Below, one piece after another: positions 52,152 to 60,769 of a stretch of 64,000 nt of DNA (positions are counted from its first letter, which is position 1; every line of letters starts with the position of its first letter). The notes below the pieces were generated by a model. That model did no database searches. It had not been told where the DNA came from and saw nothing but the letters and a program-made list of their open reading frames with translations. The stretch lies in the NCBI GenBank assembly GCA_026416295.1, contig JAOAFL010000097.1, forward strand, positions 1 to 64,000, read 5' to 3'. This DNA comes from Burkholderiales bacterium (lineage in GTDB: Bacteria > Pseudomonadota > Gammaproteobacteria > Burkholderiales > SG8-39). A program made the translations under genes and the position numbers.

Positions 52152-52424
52152 CTACGCCGCCGGTTTCTCGATGCGCACGACGCTTTCCAGCTCGCCCACC
52201 TGGTCGAGCACCTTGCGCGCATAGCGGTAGAGCTGGACCCCTTTCGCCGTCGGGGTCACGTTGCGGTGCACGCGGTGAAAGAGCGGTGCGCCGACGAAGT
52301 TCTCCAGCCGGCGGACCCGCGTCGAGACGCTCGACTGCACGGTGTTCAGCGCGCGCGCCGCGCGCGCGAACCCGCGCAGCTCGTACACGGCGACAAAGCA
52401 GCGCAGGTCCTTCAGATCGAGCAT
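52152..52424 (-). CDS. LysR-type DNA-binding domain only (90 aa, no effector domain)
   Basis: MLDLKDLRCFVAVYELRGFARAARALNTVQSSVSTRVRRLENFVGAPLFHRVHRNVTPTAKGVQLYRYARKVLDQVGELESVVRIEKPAA stop; dtd lies immediately beyond on the other strand. Confidence 0.85.
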   Translation of the reverse strand: MLDLKDLRCFVAVYELRGFARAARALNTVQSSVSTRVRRLENFVGAPLFHRVHRNVTPTAKGVQLYRYARKVLDQVGELESVVRIEKPAA

Positions 52425-52750: not shown

Positions 52751-53710
52751 ATGAAGCGATTCGCGGTCGCCGTCCTCCTTTCGCTTGCGGCGCAGGGCGC
52801 GCTCGCGCAGCCGTTTCCCTCGCGCCAGATCACGATGATCGTCGGGTTCGCGGCCGGCGGCGGCGCCGACACCGCGGCGCGCATCATCGCCAGGCGGCTC
52901 GCCGAGACGATCGGTCAGCCGGTCGTGATCGACAACCGCGCCGGCGCCGGCGGCAACATCGCCGCCGATCTGGTCGCCAAAGCGACCCCCGACGGCCACA
53001 CGATCGGCCTCGCTTCGCCCGGACCGCTCACGGTCGCCCCCCACATGGTGGCGAAGCTGCCGTACGACCCCCTGCGGGATTTCGCGCCGCTCACGATGGC
53101 GGTGACCTTCCCGAACGTGCTCGTCGTGAACGCGTCGGTGCCGGCGACCACCCTCGCCGAATTCGTGCGCCTTTCGAACGCGCGCCCGGGCACCGTGACC
53201 TGCGGCAGCTCCGGCATCGGCGGGATCGGCCATCTGTCGTGCGAGCTGCTCAAGATGGTCGCGAAGGCCGATCTGGTGCACGTGCCTTACAAGGGCGGCG
53301 CGCCCGCGATGACCGATCTCCTGAGCGGCCAGATCTCGTCGATCTTCGCGACGCCGATCACCGCCGGCCCGCACATCAAGGCGGGCAAGATCCGGGCGCT
53401 CGCCACCACCGGCGCGACGCGCGCGAGCGCCCTTCCGGAGGTGCCGACGGTCGCCGAGTCCGGCTATCCGGGGTTCGAAGCGATCAACTGGTACTGCTTC
53501 ATCGCACCGGCGAAGACGCCGAAGGAGACGCTCGAGCGGCTGCGCCGCGACCTCGTCGCAGTGCTCTCCGAGCGCGACATACGCGAGCAGCTCGCCGCGC
53601 ACGGCATGGATCCCGCGCCGGGTACCCCCGAGGAACTGAGGCGTTACATCGAGCGCGAGTACGCGACCTGGGGCCGGGTGGTGAAGGCGGCCGGGATCAC
53701 CGCGAACTGA
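52751..53710 (+). CDS. Bug/tripartite tricarboxylate transporter substrate-binding protein
   Basis: Signal peptide; QPFPSRQITMIVGFAAGGGADTAARIIARRLAETIGQPVVIDNRAGAGGNIAADLVAKATPDGHT...LVHVPYKGGAPAMTDLLSGQ. Confidence 0.95.
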   Translation: MKRFAVAVLLSLAAQGALAQPFPSRQITMIVGFAAGGGADTAARIIARRLAETIGQPVVIDNRAGAGGNIAADLVAKATPDGHTIGLASPGPLTVAPHMVAKLPYDPLRDFAPLTMAVTFPNVLVVNASVPATTLAEFVRLSNARPGTVTCGSSGIGGIGHLSCELLKMVAKADLVHVPYKGGAPAMTDLLSGQISSIFATPITAGPHIKAGKIRALATTGATRASALPEVPTVAESGYPGFEAINWYCFIAPAKTPKETLERLRRDLVAVLSERDIREQLAAHGMDPAPGTPEELRRYIEREYATWGRVVKAAGITAN

Positions 53711-53768: not shown

Positions 53769-56060
53769 TCAGCCGCGCTCGTGCTTTCGCTCGAGCGCGC
53801 GCCAGACGGTTTCGGGCGTGAGCGGCATCTGCACGTCCTCGACGCCGAGGGCATCGACGATCGCGTTCATCACCGCGGCGAGCGCGCCGACCGTGCCCGC
53901 CTCGCCCGCGCCCTTTGCGCCGAGCGGGTTGAGCCGCGTCGGCACCGGGTTGTGCCCGAGGCGAAAGCCGCAGACGTCGGCGGCGCGCGGCATCGCGTAG
54001 TCCATGAACGAGGCGGTGAGGAGCTGTCCCGACTCCGGGTCGTAGACGATCTGTTCCATCACGATCTGCCCGAAGCCCTGAACGATGCCGCCCATCACCT
54101 GGCCGGCGAGCGTGAGCGGATTGATCTCGGTGCCGACGTCGTCCACCACCGCGTAGGCGACCGGGGTGACCGCGCCGGTCTCCGGGTCGATCTCGACCTC
54201 GCAGACGTGCGTGCCGTTCGGAAACGTCTCGGCCGCAGGCGAGAACGCCGCGCGCTCGAAGAGCCCCGGTTCGACCCCGGGCGGCAGCCGCGCAGGCACG
54301 TAGGCGAGGCGCGCGACCTCCGCGAGCGCGATGCCGCGGTCGGTGCCGGCGATGCGGAAGCGCCCGTCGTCGAAGACGACATCGGCTTCGCTCGCCTCGA
54401 GCAGGTGCGCGGCGATGCGCTTCGCCTTGGCGATCACCTTGTCGGCGGCGAGCCAGAGGGCGGTGCCGCCGATCACCGCCGAGCGCGAGCCGAAGGTGCC
54501 GTAGCCGAAGGCGATCGCGTCCGTGTCGCCGTCGGCGACGCGCACCTCGGCCGGATCGAGCCCGAGCCGCGCGGCGACGATCTGGCGATACATCGTCTCG
54601 TGGCCCTGGCCCTGGCTTTTCGTTCCGACGAGCACGCTCGCGCGACCGTCGGGGTCGAAGCGAATCTCGGCGGTCTCGACGCTCGGGGCGCCGGCGCGCT
54701 CGATCGCGTTCGCGAGCCCGATGCCGCGCAGCTTGCCGCGCGCCTGCGCCTGCGCGCGCCGCGCCGCAAAGCCGTTCCAGTCGGCGAGCGCGAGCGCCTT
54801 GTCCATGCCGCGCTCGAACTCGCCGCAGTCGTACGTGAACGTGAGCGCGGTCTTGTACGGCATCGCGGTCGGCGGAATCAGGTTGCGCCGGCGCAGCTCG
54901 ACGCGGTCGGCGCCCAGCTCGCGCGCCGCGTCGTCGATCAGCCGCTCGAGGGCGTAGATCGCCTCGGGGCGACCGCTGCCGCGGTACGGCGCGATCGGAT
55001 TGCGGTGCGAGAACCGCGTCGTCACGCGCACGTACGCGGCCGGAATCGCGTAGACGCCGACGAGGGAGCCCAGGTTGGCGAAGCCGGGCATCAGGTTGCG
55101 GTCGGAGGAGACGTAGGCGCCCACGTCGTCGGTCTTTTCCGCCCGCAGCGCGAGAAAGCGGTGCTCGCGGTCGAGCGCGAGCGCGATGTCGAACGCGCAG
55201 TCGCGGCCGTGCTCGTCGGCGAGCGGCGCTTCGCTGCGCTCGCAGAGCCACTTCACCGGGCGGCGCAGCCGGCGCGCGAGCCACAGCACCAGGCGGTGCT
55301 CGAGGCTCGTCCAGCCCTTCGCGCCGAACGCGCCGCCGACGTCGCGGCACACGACCCGGATGCGGTGCTCGGGCACCGCGAGCACGGTCGCGAGCACCTC
55401 GCGGATGCGGTGCGGGTACTGCGCGTCGCAGTAAAGCGTGTAGCGCCCTTCGCCCTCGTCCCAGACGCCGAGCGCGCCGCGCGGCTCCATGAACTGCGCG
55501 TGCACGCGCGAGACGGTGTAGCGGCGCTGAACGACGTGCGCGGCACGCGCGAACGCCTGCTCGGTCGCGGCGCGGTCGCCCAGCTCGAACGCGCAGCAGA
55601 CGTCGTCGGGGCATTCGTCCCACACGGGCGCCGAGGCGGGCAGCGGCTCGTAGTCGACCGCGACGAGCTCGGCGGCGTCCTTTGCGAGCGCCGCGGTTTC
55701 GGCGACCACCGCGGCGACCGGATCGCCGACGTGCTGCACTTTGCCGCGCGCAAGCCCCGGGTGCGGCCGCCAGAACATCGGCGTGCCGTCCGGGCGGCTG
55801 CGCTTGAGCGTCGGCGCGGTGGTGCGCAGGCCGTCGCGCGCGAGGTCCTCGGCCGTGAATACGCCGAGTACGCCGGGTGTGGCGAGCGCCGCGGCGGCGT
55901 CCACCGCGACGATGCGCGCGTGCGCATGCGGCGAGCGAACGAGCACCATGTGCGCTTCGCGCGCCAGCTCCAGGTCGGCGACGAAATGCCCCTCGCCCCG
56001 CAGCAGGCGCGCATCCTCGAAGCGGGGGACCGGCTGGCCGATTCCGAATTTCTCGTTCAT
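53769..56060 (-). CDS. xanthine dehydrogenase/CoxL family molybdopterin-binding subunit
   Basis: 763 aa; IGQPVPRFEDARLLRGEGHFVADLELAREAHMVLVRSPHAHARIVAVD...VVCRDVGGAFGAKGWTSLEHRLVLWLARRLRRPVKWLCERSEA...KGAGEAGTVGALAAVMNAIVDAL. Confidence 0.93.
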   Translation of the reverse strand: MNEKFGIGQPVPRFEDARLLRGEGHFVADLELAREAHMVLVRSPHAHARIVAVDAAAALATPGVLGVFTAEDLARDGLRTTAPTLKRSRPDGTPMFWRPHPGLARGKVQHVGDPVAAVVAETAALAKDAAELVAVDYEPLPASAPVWDECPDDVCCAFELGDRAATEQAFARAAHVVQRRYTVSRVHAQFMEPRGALGVWDEGEGRYTLYCDAQYPHRIREVLATVLAVPEHRIRVVCRDVGGAFGAKGWTSLEHRLVLWLARRLRRPVKWLCERSEAPLADEHGRDCAFDIALALDREHRFLALRAEKTDDVGAYVSSDRNLMPGFANLGSLVGVYAIPAAYVRVTTRFSHRNPIAPYRGSGRPEAIYALERLIDDAARELGADRVELRRRNLIPPTAMPYKTALTFTYDCGEFERGMDKALALADWNGFAARRAQAQARGKLRGIGLANAIERAGAPSVETAEIRFDPDGRASVLVGTKSQGQGHETMYRQIVAARLGLDPAEVRVADGDTDAIAFGYGTFGSRSAVIGGTALWLAADKVIAKAKRIAAHLLEASEADVVFDDGRFRIAGTDRGIALAEVARLAYVPARLPPGVEPGLFERAAFSPAAETFPNGTHVCEVEIDPETGAVTPVAYAVVDDVGTEINPLTLAGQVMGGIVQGFGQIVMEQIVYDPESGQLLTASFMDYAMPRAADVCGFRLGHNPVPTRLNPLGAKGAGEAGTVGALAAVMNAIVDALGVEDVQMPLTPETVWRALERKHERG

Positions 56061-56189: not shown

Positions 56190-56939
56190 TCAGCCCTGCA
56201 CCGAGTAGCCGCCGTCCACCGGGATCGCGGCGCCGGTGACGAAGTCCGAGGCGCGGCTTGCGAGAAACACCGCGATGCCGGCGAGGTCCGAAGGCTCGCC
56301 CCAGCGGCCGGCGGGCGTTCGCGCGAGCACCCGCTCGTAGAGGCCCGCCACCTGCTCGCGCGCGCGGCGCGTGAGGTCGGTGTCGATCCAGCCCGGCAGC
56401 ACCGCGTTCACCTGGATGTTGTCTTTCGCCCAGGCGCAGGCGAGTGCGCGCGTGAGCTGCACGATCCCGCCCTTGGAGGCGGCGTAGGGCGCGGCGAAGG
56501 AGGCGCCGAAGAGCGACATCATCGAGCCGACGTTGACGATCTTTCCGCCGCCTGCGCGCTTCATCCGCGGGTAGGCCGCCTGCGAGAGGAGAAAAGCGCT
56601 CGTGAGGTTGGTTTCCAGCACCTCGCGCCATTCCGATGCGGCGTACTCTTGCGGTTGTTTACGGATGTTGATGCCGGCGTTGTTGACGAGGATATCGAGC
56701 CGCCCGAGCGCGGCCACCGTCCGTTCCACGACCTCGCGACAGGCGGCTTCCTCGCGCAGGTCGGCTTCGAACGCGACGCCGCCCAGCTCGCGCGCCGCGG
56801 CGGCGTTTTTCCGCGCGTCGCGGCCGACGATCGCAACGCGCGCGCCGGCGGCGGCAAGCCCCCGCGCCATGCCCAGGCCGATCCCGCCGTTTCCGCCGGT
56901 GACGAGCGCTGCCTTGCCTTCGAGATCGAACAGGTTCAT
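56190..56939 (-). CDS. SDR family oxidoreductase
   Basis: MNLFDLEGKAALVTGGNGGIGLGMARGLAAAGARVAIVGRD...ILVNNAGINIRKQPQEY...YAASKGGIVQLTRALA...VDGGYSVQG. Confidence 0.95.
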   Translation of the reverse strand: MNLFDLEGKAALVTGGNGGIGLGMARGLAAAGARVAIVGRDARKNAAAARELGGVAFEADLREEAACREVVERTVAALGRLDILVNNAGINIRKQPQEYAASEWREVLETNLTSAFLLSQAAYPRMKRAGGGKIVNVGSMMSLFGASFAAPYAASKGGIVQLTRALACAWAKDNIQVNAVLPGWIDTDLTRRAREQVAGLYERVLARTPAGRWGEPSDLAGIAVFLASRASDFVTGAAIPVDGGYSVQG

Positions 56940-57002: not shown

Positions 57003-59087
57003 GTGAGGATTTTCTCGAACCGCCGCCGTCCGGTGCACCTCGGGCCGCTGCCGCTCGAGCGCGTGCGGCGCGCAGCCGCCGTGCCCGACCTTTCCAGGGT
57101 CGAGGACGCGTTTCCCGCGCGAAGCCGCACCGCGCTCGGCCGCATCGTGAACGACTACATCGCGCTCTTCGAGCAGTTCCGCGCCGAGCCTGCGGCCCCC
57201 GAGCGCGCGCCGTACCCGCGCGACCCGCAGCGCCTCGCGAACGAACTGAAGGCGAACTGCTACTTTCTCGATGCGACGCTCGCCGGCTGCTGCGAGGTGC
57301 CGGCGTCGGCCTGGACAGGGCCGAAGCGGCCGGAGGAGCGCTGGGCGCTCGCGATCGCGGTCGAGTTCGGTCGCGAACCCGATGCGGAGGACCTCGCCGC
57401 CCGCTGGGTGCGGGGAAGCGAATACGACTGCGCGCTCCTTCGCGCCGCCGAGATCGCGCTCGTCTGCGCCTCGTTCCTTCGCCGGCTGGGATTTTCGGCG
57501 ACCGCGCACACGCGCGATGCGACCGAGGTCTCGCATGCGCGCATCCTCGTCGCCGCCGGGCTTGCGCGCTGGAAGGAAGGCAGGCTCGTCGCCCCCTTCA
57601 TCGGCAGCCGCTTCGCCTCGGCGGTCGTCACCACCTCCGAGCCGCTTGCGCCGGATGCGCCGCTCGCTGACGGCTTCTTCGACGGCGGGCTCGGCTGGTG
57701 GCTCGGGGCAGGCGGCACCGAGACGTGGTGGAACCGGCGGTTTCTTCGCCGCCGGCCGTCGCACGCGGGGCGCTATCCGATGGAGAAAATCCGCCGCGTC
57801 GCCACGCCGACGACGCTCGTCCTGGAAGACGAGGTGCCGCGTGTTCCGAAGCGCGCCAATTTCTTCACCCGGGCCGCGGCCGGCGACCTCGGCGAGAAAG
57901 CGCAGCGCGAGCGCTCGCGCTTCGCCTACAAGACGCCGATCGCCGATGCCTACGTGAAGCTCATTCGCGCGATGGTGCCGAGGCAGGGCGGCGACTGCGC
58001 CCCGGCGCGCGATCCGGCGACCCACGATCCGGCGGCGAACGCCCGAGCGCTCAAGTCGCTCATGTATTTTCTCGGCGCCGACATGGTCGGGCTGTGCGAA
58101 GCGAAGCCCTACTGCTGGTATTCGCACCAGGAGGACGGAACGCCGATCGCGCCGTATCACCGCAACGCCGCGGTGATGCTCGTGGACCAGGGCTTCGAGA
58201 CGATGGAGGGCGCCTCGGGCGACGACTGGATCTCGGGCGCGCAGTCCATGCGCGCGTACCTGCGCGGTGCCGAGATCTGCGGGGTGGCCGCCGCCTTCAT
58301 CCGCTCGCTCGGCTGGAGCGCGCGCTCGCAGACGAACGCCGATTCCGACGTGGTGCAGCTTCCGCTCGTGCTGCTCGCGGGGCTCGGCGAGCTTTCGCGC
58401 ATCGGCGAGCTGGTGCTCAATCCCTTCGTCGGCCCGCGCTTCAAGAGCGCCGTGGTGACCACCGACCTGCCGCTTGCGCCCGACCGGCCGGTGGACTTCG
58501 GACTTCAGGACATGTGCGCGAAATGCAGCAAGTGCGCGCGCGAGTGTCCGTGCAGCGCGATCTCCTTCGGCGAGAAGGTGATGTTCAACGGCTACGAGAT
58601 GTGGAAGCCGGATGTCGAGCGCTGCACGCGCTATCGCGTCACCAACCCGCACGGCTCGGCCTGCGGGCGCTGCATGAAGACCTGCCCGTACAACCACGAG
58701 GGGTTGCTCCTGCACCGGGCGTTCCTGTGGGCGGCGATCCGGCTGCCGTGGACGCGGCGCGCGATCGTGCGCCTCGACGACTGGGTCGGCAACGGCGCGA
58801 TCAACCCGGTGAAGACCTGGTGGACCGATCTCGAGATCGTCGAGGGCAGGGTGGTGAAGCCGCGCGGCGCGAACCGCCGGGGCCTTTCGCTCGACAAAGG
58901 CACTGCGCCGCCGCCGGGACACCGGATCGCCTACTACCCGGCCGCGGTCAATCCGCCGGCCGATGCGAAGAATCCGGTGCCGGTGGACAGAAAAGCGGCG
59001 CTTTCCGTGCGGCTGGAAACGCCCGAGGAGGCGCGCCGCAGGCGGGGCCTCGCCGCTCAGAGGGGCACGAGCAGCTCCTCGACGTAG
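57003..59087 (+). CDS. reductive-dehalogenase-like corrinoid/iron-sulfur protein (catabolic, no Tat signal)
   Basis: 694 aa, GTG start; CAKCSKCARECPCSAI (CX2CX2CX3CP) plus CTRYRVTNPHGSACGRCMKTCP (CX12CX2CX3CP); LKSLMYFLGADMVGLCEAKPYCWYSHQEDG; GAEICGVAAAFIRSLGWSARSQTNAD. N-terminal half is a degenerate repeat of the central domain. Confidence 0.85.
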   Translation: MRIFSNRRRPVHLGPLPLERVRRAAAVPDLSRVEDAFPARSRTALGRIVNDYIALFEQFRAEPAAPERAPYPRDPQRLANELKANCYFLDATLAGCCEVPASAWTGPKRPEERWALAIAVEFGREPDAEDLAARWVRGSEYDCALLRAAEIALVCASFLRRLGFSATAHTRDATEVSHARILVAAGLARWKEGRLVAPFIGSRFASAVVTTSEPLAPDAPLADGFFDGGLGWWLGAGGTETWWNRRFLRRRPSHAGRYPMEKIRRVATPTTLVLEDEVPRVPKRANFFTRAAAGDLGEKAQRERSRFAYKTPIADAYVKLIRAMVPRQGGDCAPARDPATHDPAANARALKSLMYFLGADMVGLCEAKPYCWYSHQEDGTPIAPYHRNAAVMLVDQGFETMEGASGDDWISGAQSMRAYLRGAEICGVAAAFIRSLGWSARSQTNADSDVVQLPLVLLAGLGELSRIGELVLNPFVGPRFKSAVVTTDLPLAPDRPVDFGLQDMCAKCSKCARECPCSAISFGEKVMFNGYEMWKPDVERCTRYRVTNPHGSACGRCMKTCPYNHEGLLLHRAFLWAAIRLPWTRRAIVRLDDWVGNGAINPVKTWWTDLEIVEGRVVKPRGANRRGLSLDKGTAPPPGHRIAYYPAAVNPPADAKNPVPVDRKAALSVRLETPEEARRRRGLAAQRGTSSSST

Positions 59088-59647
59088 GGCAGCCGGTCCT
59101 GCCCGAAGTGCATCTGGTTTCCGACGAAAAACGTCGGTACGCCGAAGACGCCGCGGCGCACCGCGGCGTCGGTCGCTGCGCGCAGCGCCTCCTTGATCGC
59201 CGGATCCTGCGTCGCCGCGAGGATCCTTTCGCCATCGAGCCCGGCCTCGCCGAGCGTTCTCGACAGCTCCTGCGGATCGGCGAGGTTGCGCCGCTCGGCC
59301 CAGAGCGCGCGGAACACCGCGTCCGAGTACGGCTGGAGAAAGCCCTGCTGCTGCGCGTACAGCGCGCCGCGCATGAGCCCGAGCGTGTTCACCGGGAAAT
59401 GCGGATTGCGCGCGAACGGCACGCCGTAGCGCGCGGCGAACCATTGCAGGTCGCGGAACATCCACGCGAGCTTCGCCGGCACCTCGGCCGGCGAACGGTT
59501 GCCGGTCGCCTGGAACACGCCGCCGAGGAGGATCGGGTGGTAGTTCACCCGCGCCCCGGTGCGCCGCGCGAGCGCCGGCACCTGCGTCCAGGCGAGGTAG
59601 GCGGCCGGGCTGCCGTAATCGAAATAGAAGTCGAGCGTCGCGCTCAT
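59057..59647 (-). CDS. 2-hydroxychromene-2-carboxylate isomerase-like DsbA-fold protein
   Basis: MSATLDFYFDYGSPAAYLAWTQVPALARRTGARVNYHPILLGGVFQATGNRSP...RRGVFGVPTFFVGNQMHFGQDRLPYVEELL. Confidence 0.92.
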   Translation of the reverse strand: MSATLDFYFDYGSPAAYLAWTQVPALARRTGARVNYHPILLGGVFQATGNRSPAEVPAKLAWMFRDLQWFAARYGVPFARNPHFPVNTLGLMRGALYAQQQGFLQPYSDAVFRALWAERRNLADPQELSRTLGEAGLDGERILAATQDPAIKEALRAATDAAVRRGVFGVPTFFVGNQMHFGQDRLPYVEELLVPL

Positions 59648-59803: not shown

Positions 59804-60769
59804 GTGATCCGATCGCTCGCTGCCGTACTCGCGCTCTGGATCGCCGCGGCGCCTGCCGCGGCCGCGCAGGACTGGCCGGCCCGTCCGGTGAGCTTCGTCG
59901 TGCCGTTCCCGCCCGGCGGATCGGTCGACCCGCTCGCGCGGCTGCTCGCCGGAAAGCTCTCCGAGTCGCTGCGGCAGCAGTTCATCGTCGAAAACAAGCC
60001 CGGCGCCTCCGGCTCGATCGGCGCCGCGCACGTCGCGAAGGCGAAGCCCGACGGCTACACCTGGCTGTTCGTGTTCGACACGCACGCGGTCAACCCGGCG
60101 CTCATCCCGAACCTGCCCTTCGATACCGCAAAAGACTTCGCGCCGGTGATGCTCGTCGGCACCGCGCCGATGGCGATCGCGACGCAGACGGCGAAGCCCT
60201 ACAAGACCTTCGGCGACGTGGTCGCCGCCGCCAAGGCGAAACCCGACACCGTCACCTTCGGCACCGTCGGCAACGGCTCGCTCGGGCACCTCACGATGGT
60301 GCTCGTGCAGCAGGCCGCGGGCATCAAGCTGGTGCATGTGCCCTACAAGGGCGGCGGACCGATGACGGCGGATGCGATCGGCGGGCAGGTGGAACTCGCG
60401 ATCGGCTCGGTCGCGGTGATGGCGCCGCACGTAAAGAGCGCGAAGCTGCGCGCGGTCGCGGTGACCGGCGACAAGCGCTCGCACGCGATGCCCGATGTGC
60501 CGTCGCTCGCGGAGCAGGGCTTTCCGGGGTTTTCGGCGCATGCCTGGTGGGGCATTTTCGGTCCCGCGGGCACGCCGAAGCCGATCCTCGATCGCCTGCA
60601 CGCCGAGCTCGTCAAGGCGCTCAATCTGCCGGACGTGCGCAAGACCCTCACCGAGACGCTCGGCATGGACCTCGTCGTTTCCAGCCCCGAGGCGTTGCAG
60701 CGCTTCCTCCTCGACGAGATGGCGCGCTGGGGCAAGGTGGTGCGCGACCACGGAATCCGGCCCGACTGA
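59804..60769 (+). CDS. Bug/tripartite tricarboxylate transporter substrate-binding protein
   Basis: Signal peptide; WPARPVSFVVPFPPGGSVDPLARLLAGKLSESLRQQFIVENKPGASGSIGAAHVAKAKPDGYTWLFV...LVHVPYKGGGPMTADAIGGQ. Confidence 0.95.
   Translation: MIRSLAAVLALWIAAAPAAAAQDWPARPVSFVVPFPPGGSVDPLARLLAGKLSESLRQQFIVENKPGASGSIGAAHVAKAKPDGYTWLFVFDTHAVNPALIPNLPFDTAKDFAPVMLVGTAPMAIATQTAKPYKTFGDVVAAAKAKPDTVTFGTVGNGSLGHLTMVLVQQAAGIKLVHVPYKGGGPMTADAIGGQVELAIGSVAVMAPHVKSAKLRAVAVTGDKRSHAMPDVPSLAEQGFPGFSAHAWWGIFGPAGTPKPILDRLHAELVKALNLPDVRKTLTETLGMDLVVSSPEALQRFLLDEMARWGKVVRDHGIRPD

Follow-up and report, generated by a model that had tools for sequence, protein, structure and literature searches.

A predicted catabolic reductive dehalogenase of the non-fused NpRdhA type beside tctC in a Burkholderiales genome

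Which kind of corrinoid and iron-sulfur enzyme is encoded at positions 57003..59087 of this Burkholderiales contig, and what might it act on? The window (the whole stretch of DNA that was analysed, 64,000 nucleotides) contains a gene of 694 codons on the + strand, with a GTG start and a stop codon ending at 59087, which we call rdhA. A sequence-only reading of this DNA had proposed that the product is a cytoplasmic, catabolic reductive dehalogenase similar to NpRdhA. Characterised examples of catabolic (aerobic-type) reductive dehalogenases are still few. Profile, sequence, structure, and active-site comparisons all agree with the proposal, and they identify the product, on sequence and modelling grounds, as a catabolic reductive dehalogenase (RdhA) of the non-fused NpRdhA type. 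The type of enzyme is already known, and this protein is a further member of the NpRdhA family.

Assignment to the catabolic reductive dehalogenases

We compared the protein to all PDB sequences with phmmer. The top match is NpRdhA from Nitratireductor pacificus pht-3B (PDB:4RAS; other structures are 6ZXU, 6ZXX, 6ZY0, and 6ZY1), with E = 1.4e-208, aligning residues 1-681 to 1-693 at about 50% identity. This alignment also supports the GTG start, as MRIFSNRRRPVHLGP aligns with MRLYSNRDRPNHLGP at residue 1 (Met1) of NpRdhA. Respiratory enzymes come next, namely 8Q4H and PceA, with E values of about 1e-26 to 1e-25. A full-length AlphaFold (AF2) model of the protein (pLDDT 91) superposes on 4RAS with TM 0.93-0.94 over 699 columns.

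We considered whether the protein could instead be QueG, an epoxyqueuosine reductase, or some other corrinoid/Fe-S enzyme that is not a dehalogenase. QueG has a related corrinoid/Fe-S fold, so the proteins have a core and Fe-S motifs in common, and there is a weak match to the QueG profile TIGR00276. But that match scores 22.7 bits, far under the curated cut-off of 200, while the score for the reductive dehalogenase profile TIGR02486 (184.1 bits) is above its curated cut-off of 160.35. Among the PDB matches, QueG ranks after the respiratory enzymes (E = 0.0016). The genome also encodes a separate QueG-like protein of 350 amino acids on another contig (C124), which is likely this organism's QueG. 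We rejected QueG identity on the TIGR00276 score, the PDB ranking, and the structural match to 4RAS, and we consider any non-dehalogenase of this kind extremely improbable. The gene in the window is the sole RdhA that we found in the genome.

A respiratory reductive dehalogenase, exported and anchored at the membrane, would belong to the same superfamily. PceA from Sulfurospirillum multivorans, which matches with E about 1e-25, has the corrinoid core, the domain with two [4Fe-4S] clusters, and the catalytic tyrosine in common with our protein. However, respiratory enzymes are Tat-exported and membrane-associated, and PceA is a dimer that lacks a vestigial duplicate of the core. In the rdhA product, a motif scan found no Tat motif in the first 45 residues and a hydrophobicity scan found no strongly hydrophobic segment. 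There is also no RdhB-like small membrane ORF near the gene. These results bear out what had been claimed from the sequence about the Tat signal and RdhB. Because the Tat motif and RdhB are absent, we rejected a respiratory identity, and the duplicated corrinoid domain described below, which is typical of catabolic enzymes, makes a respiratory role similarly remote.

Within the catabolic group, BhbA from Comamonas sp. 7D-2 (plasmid pBHB) is 44% identical to our protein. BhbA, JtRdhA, and other self-sufficient catabolic RdhAs have the duplicated core and the catalytic residues in common with it. Unlike our protein, the BhbA/JtRdhA type carries a C-terminal NAD(P)H-dependent module that resembles phthalate dioxygenase reductase. 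The rdhA product has nothing C-terminal that could be such a fused flavin or ferredoxin reductase (694 amino acids versus 1071 for BhbA), as had been noticed at the outset.

Duplicated core, active site, and iron-sulfur clusters

The N-terminal half had been described as a degenerate copy of the central domain. BLASTP aligns the two halves at 37% identity over 209 columns (E = 3e-28), and profile-profile comparison with hhalign gives a probability of 99.95% (E = 1.3e-38, 181 columns). For one reversed and 20 column-shuffled controls, the probability was at most 2.8%. The vestigial copy spans residues 45-222 (57135..57668, + strand). When residues 45-236 are modelled by themselves with AlphaFold (pLDDT 93), the result matches NpRdhA in the PDB, then PceA (E 1e-8 to 1e-9) and QueG (E about 1e-6), with a weak match to the B12 chaperone CblD. 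In this copy, the equivalents of the catalytic Tyr419 and Lys481 are Leu145 and Ala205, so it is presumably catalytically dead. All of this upholds the description. The duplication is not new, as it is a published hallmark of catabolic RdhAs: it separates them from respiratory RdhAs, and the vestigial domain imitates the other subunit that respiratory RdhAs have in their dimer (PMC10463259).

We then examined the functional core, which corresponds to about residues 285-500 (57855..58502, + strand) and includes F288, G412, S415, M416, Y419, and K481. We read the active site from an alignment of 91 sequences, including NpRdhA, using published NpRdhA residues (PMC7565698, PMC10463259); the functions of these residues are described in PMC7565698. 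Of the NpRdhA residues, F291, S422, M423, Y426, K488, and R552 are all kept (as F288, S415, M416, Y419, K481, and R545), and so are F290, F310, and N452. Tyr419 (codon 58257..58259, + strand; NpRdhA Y426) is the predicted proton donor and is invariant in 91 of 91 sequences. Lys481 (codon 58443..58445, + strand; NpRdhA K488) is equally invariant (91/91) and, by homology, would be the partner of the tyrosine and a ligand of the substrate's hydroxyl group. The sequence-only reading had named two outcomes that would speak against its proposal, a best match to QueG and the loss of the tyrosine and basic residues. We checked both, and neither is the case: Tyr419, Lys481, and Arg545 are retained.

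Two [4Fe-4S] motifs follow, at C505-C515 and C541-C561 (58515..58685, + strand), with Arg545 (NpRdhA R552) in between and a Fer4_7 match to residues 505-564. The spacing is C505-x2-C508-x2-C511-x3-C515-P and C541-x12-C554-x2-C557-x3-C561-P, exactly as previously read from the translation, and all eight cluster cysteines are present.

The pocket differs from that of NpRdhA at three positions: Gly412 replaces A419, Ala308 replaces P311, and Arg304 replaces K307. (In NpRdhA, K307 contacts the carboxylate in one non-productive pose of the ligand.) Glycine at position 412 is the majority state (83 of 91 aligned sequences). Changing A419 of NpRdhA to methionine shifted the enzyme towards mono-halogenated substrates (PMC7565698). 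From this effect, we can reasonably infer that Gly412 would give a wider pocket for the second halogen.

Overall, our protein has in common with NpRdhA the full-length homology, the predicted fold, the duplicated corrinoid domain, the non-fused architecture, the catalytic Tyr/Lys/Arg/Ser/Phe residues, and the cysteines. It differs from NpRdhA in these pocket residues, in belonging to a separate subclade, and in having no adjoining genes for ferredoxin or ferredoxin reductase.

Substrate, pathway, and electron supply

What would this enzyme act on? According to PMC10463259, every catabolic RdhA characterised by 2023 has ortho-halogenated phenols as its substrates. By analogy, the substrates are most likely ortho-halogenated phenolic acids, such as halo-4-hydroxybenzoates. 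The genome, whose gene content outside the window we assessed by single-family searches, encodes PobA (668 bits, cut-off 538.7) and homologues of LigA and LigB. The latter share 47-52% identity with their counterparts beside rdhA on plasmids pBHB and pOM-1. With PobA and LigAB, a route from halo-4-hydroxybenzoate to 4-hydroxybenzoate, protocatechuate, and ring cleavage is genetically possible. A caveat is that pobA and ligAB are not linked to rdhA and lie on other contigs.

By analogy with characterised enzymes, an ortho-halogenated phenol would bind through its halogen directly to base-off cobalamin in the central domain. Its hydroxyl group would be held by Lys481, Arg545, and Ser415, and Tyr419 would give the proton. 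A ferredoxin or ferredoxin-type reductase, encoded elsewhere as a separate protein, would pass electrons to the two [4Fe-4S] clusters and on to cobalt. The N-terminal half would be a dead copy of the core, occupying the place that a second subunit has in the dimer of respiratory RdhAs. Bromine or chlorine would probably be taken off 4-hydroxybenzoate-like acids, and the ring would then be degraded by PobA and LigAB. Our analysis establishes the family, the predicted fold, the conserved residues, the duplication, and the lack of a fused reductase. We infer the activity, oligomeric state, substrate, electron donor, and pathway, and we hold with good confidence that, taken together, this is a cytoplasmic, monomeric, NpRdhA-type catabolic RdhA with a corrinoid and two [4Fe-4S] clusters, working by this mechanism in this role.

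Several observations do not fit so easily. First, there is no ferredoxin or reductase gene among the neighbours of rdhA, while the NpRdhA cluster includes both (PMC10463259). Such genes are reported in the clusters of some catabolic RdhAs, NpRdhA for example, and they are neither universal nor strictly defining. A motif search for a redox partner also found no recurrent ferredoxin among the neighbours of 80 homologues. Elsewhere in the genome, we found two NAD_binding_1 reductases, a Fer2-FAD-NAD protein (contig C88) and an Fpr-like ferredoxin-NADP reductase (contig C32), and both are candidate electron donors. Second, we did not find CobS in this genome (a 94% complete MAG, which may miss genes). 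This and the presence of one cobalamin riboswitch suggest that the enzyme probably depends on scavenged corrinoid. Third, the changes from A419 to Gly and from P311 to Ala alter the pocket near the second halogen site, and K307 is replaced as well.

The changes to Gly and Ala in the pocket would also fit a catabolic RdhA with another natural organohalide as its substrate, for example a natural halophenol, a halo-indole, or a haloaliphatic acid. A scan of species-level genomes gave 180 stretches that encode relatives, of which 80 were kept. They come from Alphaproteobacteria, Gammaproteobacteria, Acidimicrobiia, and a few Betaproteobacteria, and nearly all are MAGs. In the tree, the rdhA product groups with strong support with the proteins from L045 (79%) and from L035 in genome G059 (77%), and more distantly with L050; this clade stands apart from that of NpRdhA. 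Furthermore, no aromatic ring-cleavage gene adjoins rdhA, and the neighbours differ among relatives (SDR, VOC dioxygenase-like, and TRAP or TctC transporter proteins). Yet the residues for the phenolic hydroxyl group (S415, K481, and R545) are strictly conserved, and specificity for ortho-halophenols is reported for the catabolic RdhAs that have been characterised (PMC10463259). We therefore regard a different organohalide as possible and rather unlikely.

Two observations on the relatives are worth recording. A VOC/glyoxalase (catechol dioxygenase-like) protein lies near rdhA in 12 loci, including L069:2929-3468, and is a possible pathway partner. Also, in some relatives (L079:10200-11423, L111:2311-3552, and L076:10279-11247), a second, single-domain RdhA-like gene directly follows the duplicated RdhA. 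The L079 protein has 408 amino acids and scores above the TIGR02486 cut-off. The single-domain protein keeps the tyrosine and the cysteines, has arginine instead of the lysine, and lacks the phenol-binding serine and arginine. A paired enzyme with the duplicated RdhA is possible.

The tctC-adjacent site within the genus

Upstream of rdhA in the window are a TctC gene (52751-53710, + strand), the large subunit of a molybdopterin hydroxylase resembling CO dehydrogenase or 4-hydroxybenzoyl-CoA reductase (53769-56060, - strand), and an SDR (56190-56939, - strand). (The hydroxylase has no adjoining small subunits and is under every NCBIfam cut-off that it matched.) Still further upstream (52152-52424, - strand), a 90-residue LysR-type helix-turn-helix without an effector domain is a truncated regulator or a gene remnant. 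At the other end, a DSBA-like thioredoxin-fold protein (59057-59647, - strand) is encoded on the strand opposite to rdhA; its gene overlaps the 3' end of rdhA and lies between rdhA and tctC (59804-60769, + strand; PF03401), which encodes a substrate-binding protein of the tripartite tricarboxylate transporter type. The DSBA-like gene is not present between rdhA and tctC in G059. Other neighbours are a D-2-hydroxyacid dehydrogenase, an EamA transporter, and a histidine phosphatase.

Is tctC linked to the function of rdhA? The two genes adjoin in sister genomes and overlap in G059, and on pBHB, tctC adjoins the rdhA gene bhbA, with LigAB nearby. We compared the block tctC-(hydroxyacid dehydrogenase)-eamA-phosphatase across the genus, where 7 of the 13 genomes have an RdhA match. 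Three sister genomes (G302, G307, and G308) keep the block and have no RdhA beside it. TctC itself (PF03401) has 39 matches in the 2.87 Mb genome that contains the window, which is a strong expansion of this receptor family. As the block persists without rdhA and TctC matches are so numerous, TctC is insecure evidence on the substrate. We downgraded a functional rdhA-tctC operon for the same reasons, and the functional link is uncertain.

The RdhA type of the window lies intact beside the tctC block in its own genome and in G059, and it is broken in two others. From the copy in G241 (L040, 9263-10196), the N-terminal 234 residues and the Fe-S domain are missing; in G300 (L141, 5795-7851), the reading frame shifts near residue 343 and there is also a stop. 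These two copies raise the possibility that the gene is decaying or non-functional in this lineage. Against this, the copies in the window and in G059 (77% identity) are both intact, the one in the window with all of its catalytic residues, and the broken copies may reflect either real decay or MAG assembly errors. We think that decay of the gene in this lineage is very improbable.

Three other genomes of the genus (G211, G301, and G306) have a second RdhA type upstream of tctC in the opposite orientation (L142:7259-9445, L143:8358-10532, and L043:3-1871). It shares only 54% identity with the first type and 70-72% with RdhAs from other bacteria. The two types share one slot and are not sisters in the tree, which suggests repeated acquisition or replacement of RdhA at this site. 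The variable occupancy beside a conserved tctC (two types, broken, or empty) is a mildly new point. More speculatively, unrelated catabolic RdhAs might be acquired at this site again and again, with a general ferredoxin or reductase of the host as the donor and with an uncharacterised clade that has a wider halogen pocket (Gly412). If this were true, it would imply that the aerobic removal of halogens from naturally occurring aromatics is selected for. The known mechanism of reductive dehalogenases is left unchanged by our finding. What rdhA offers is a testable enzyme for aromatic dehalogenation: it is intact, belongs to a betaproteobacterial clade that is so far uncharacterised, and shares its genome with a possible downstream pathway.
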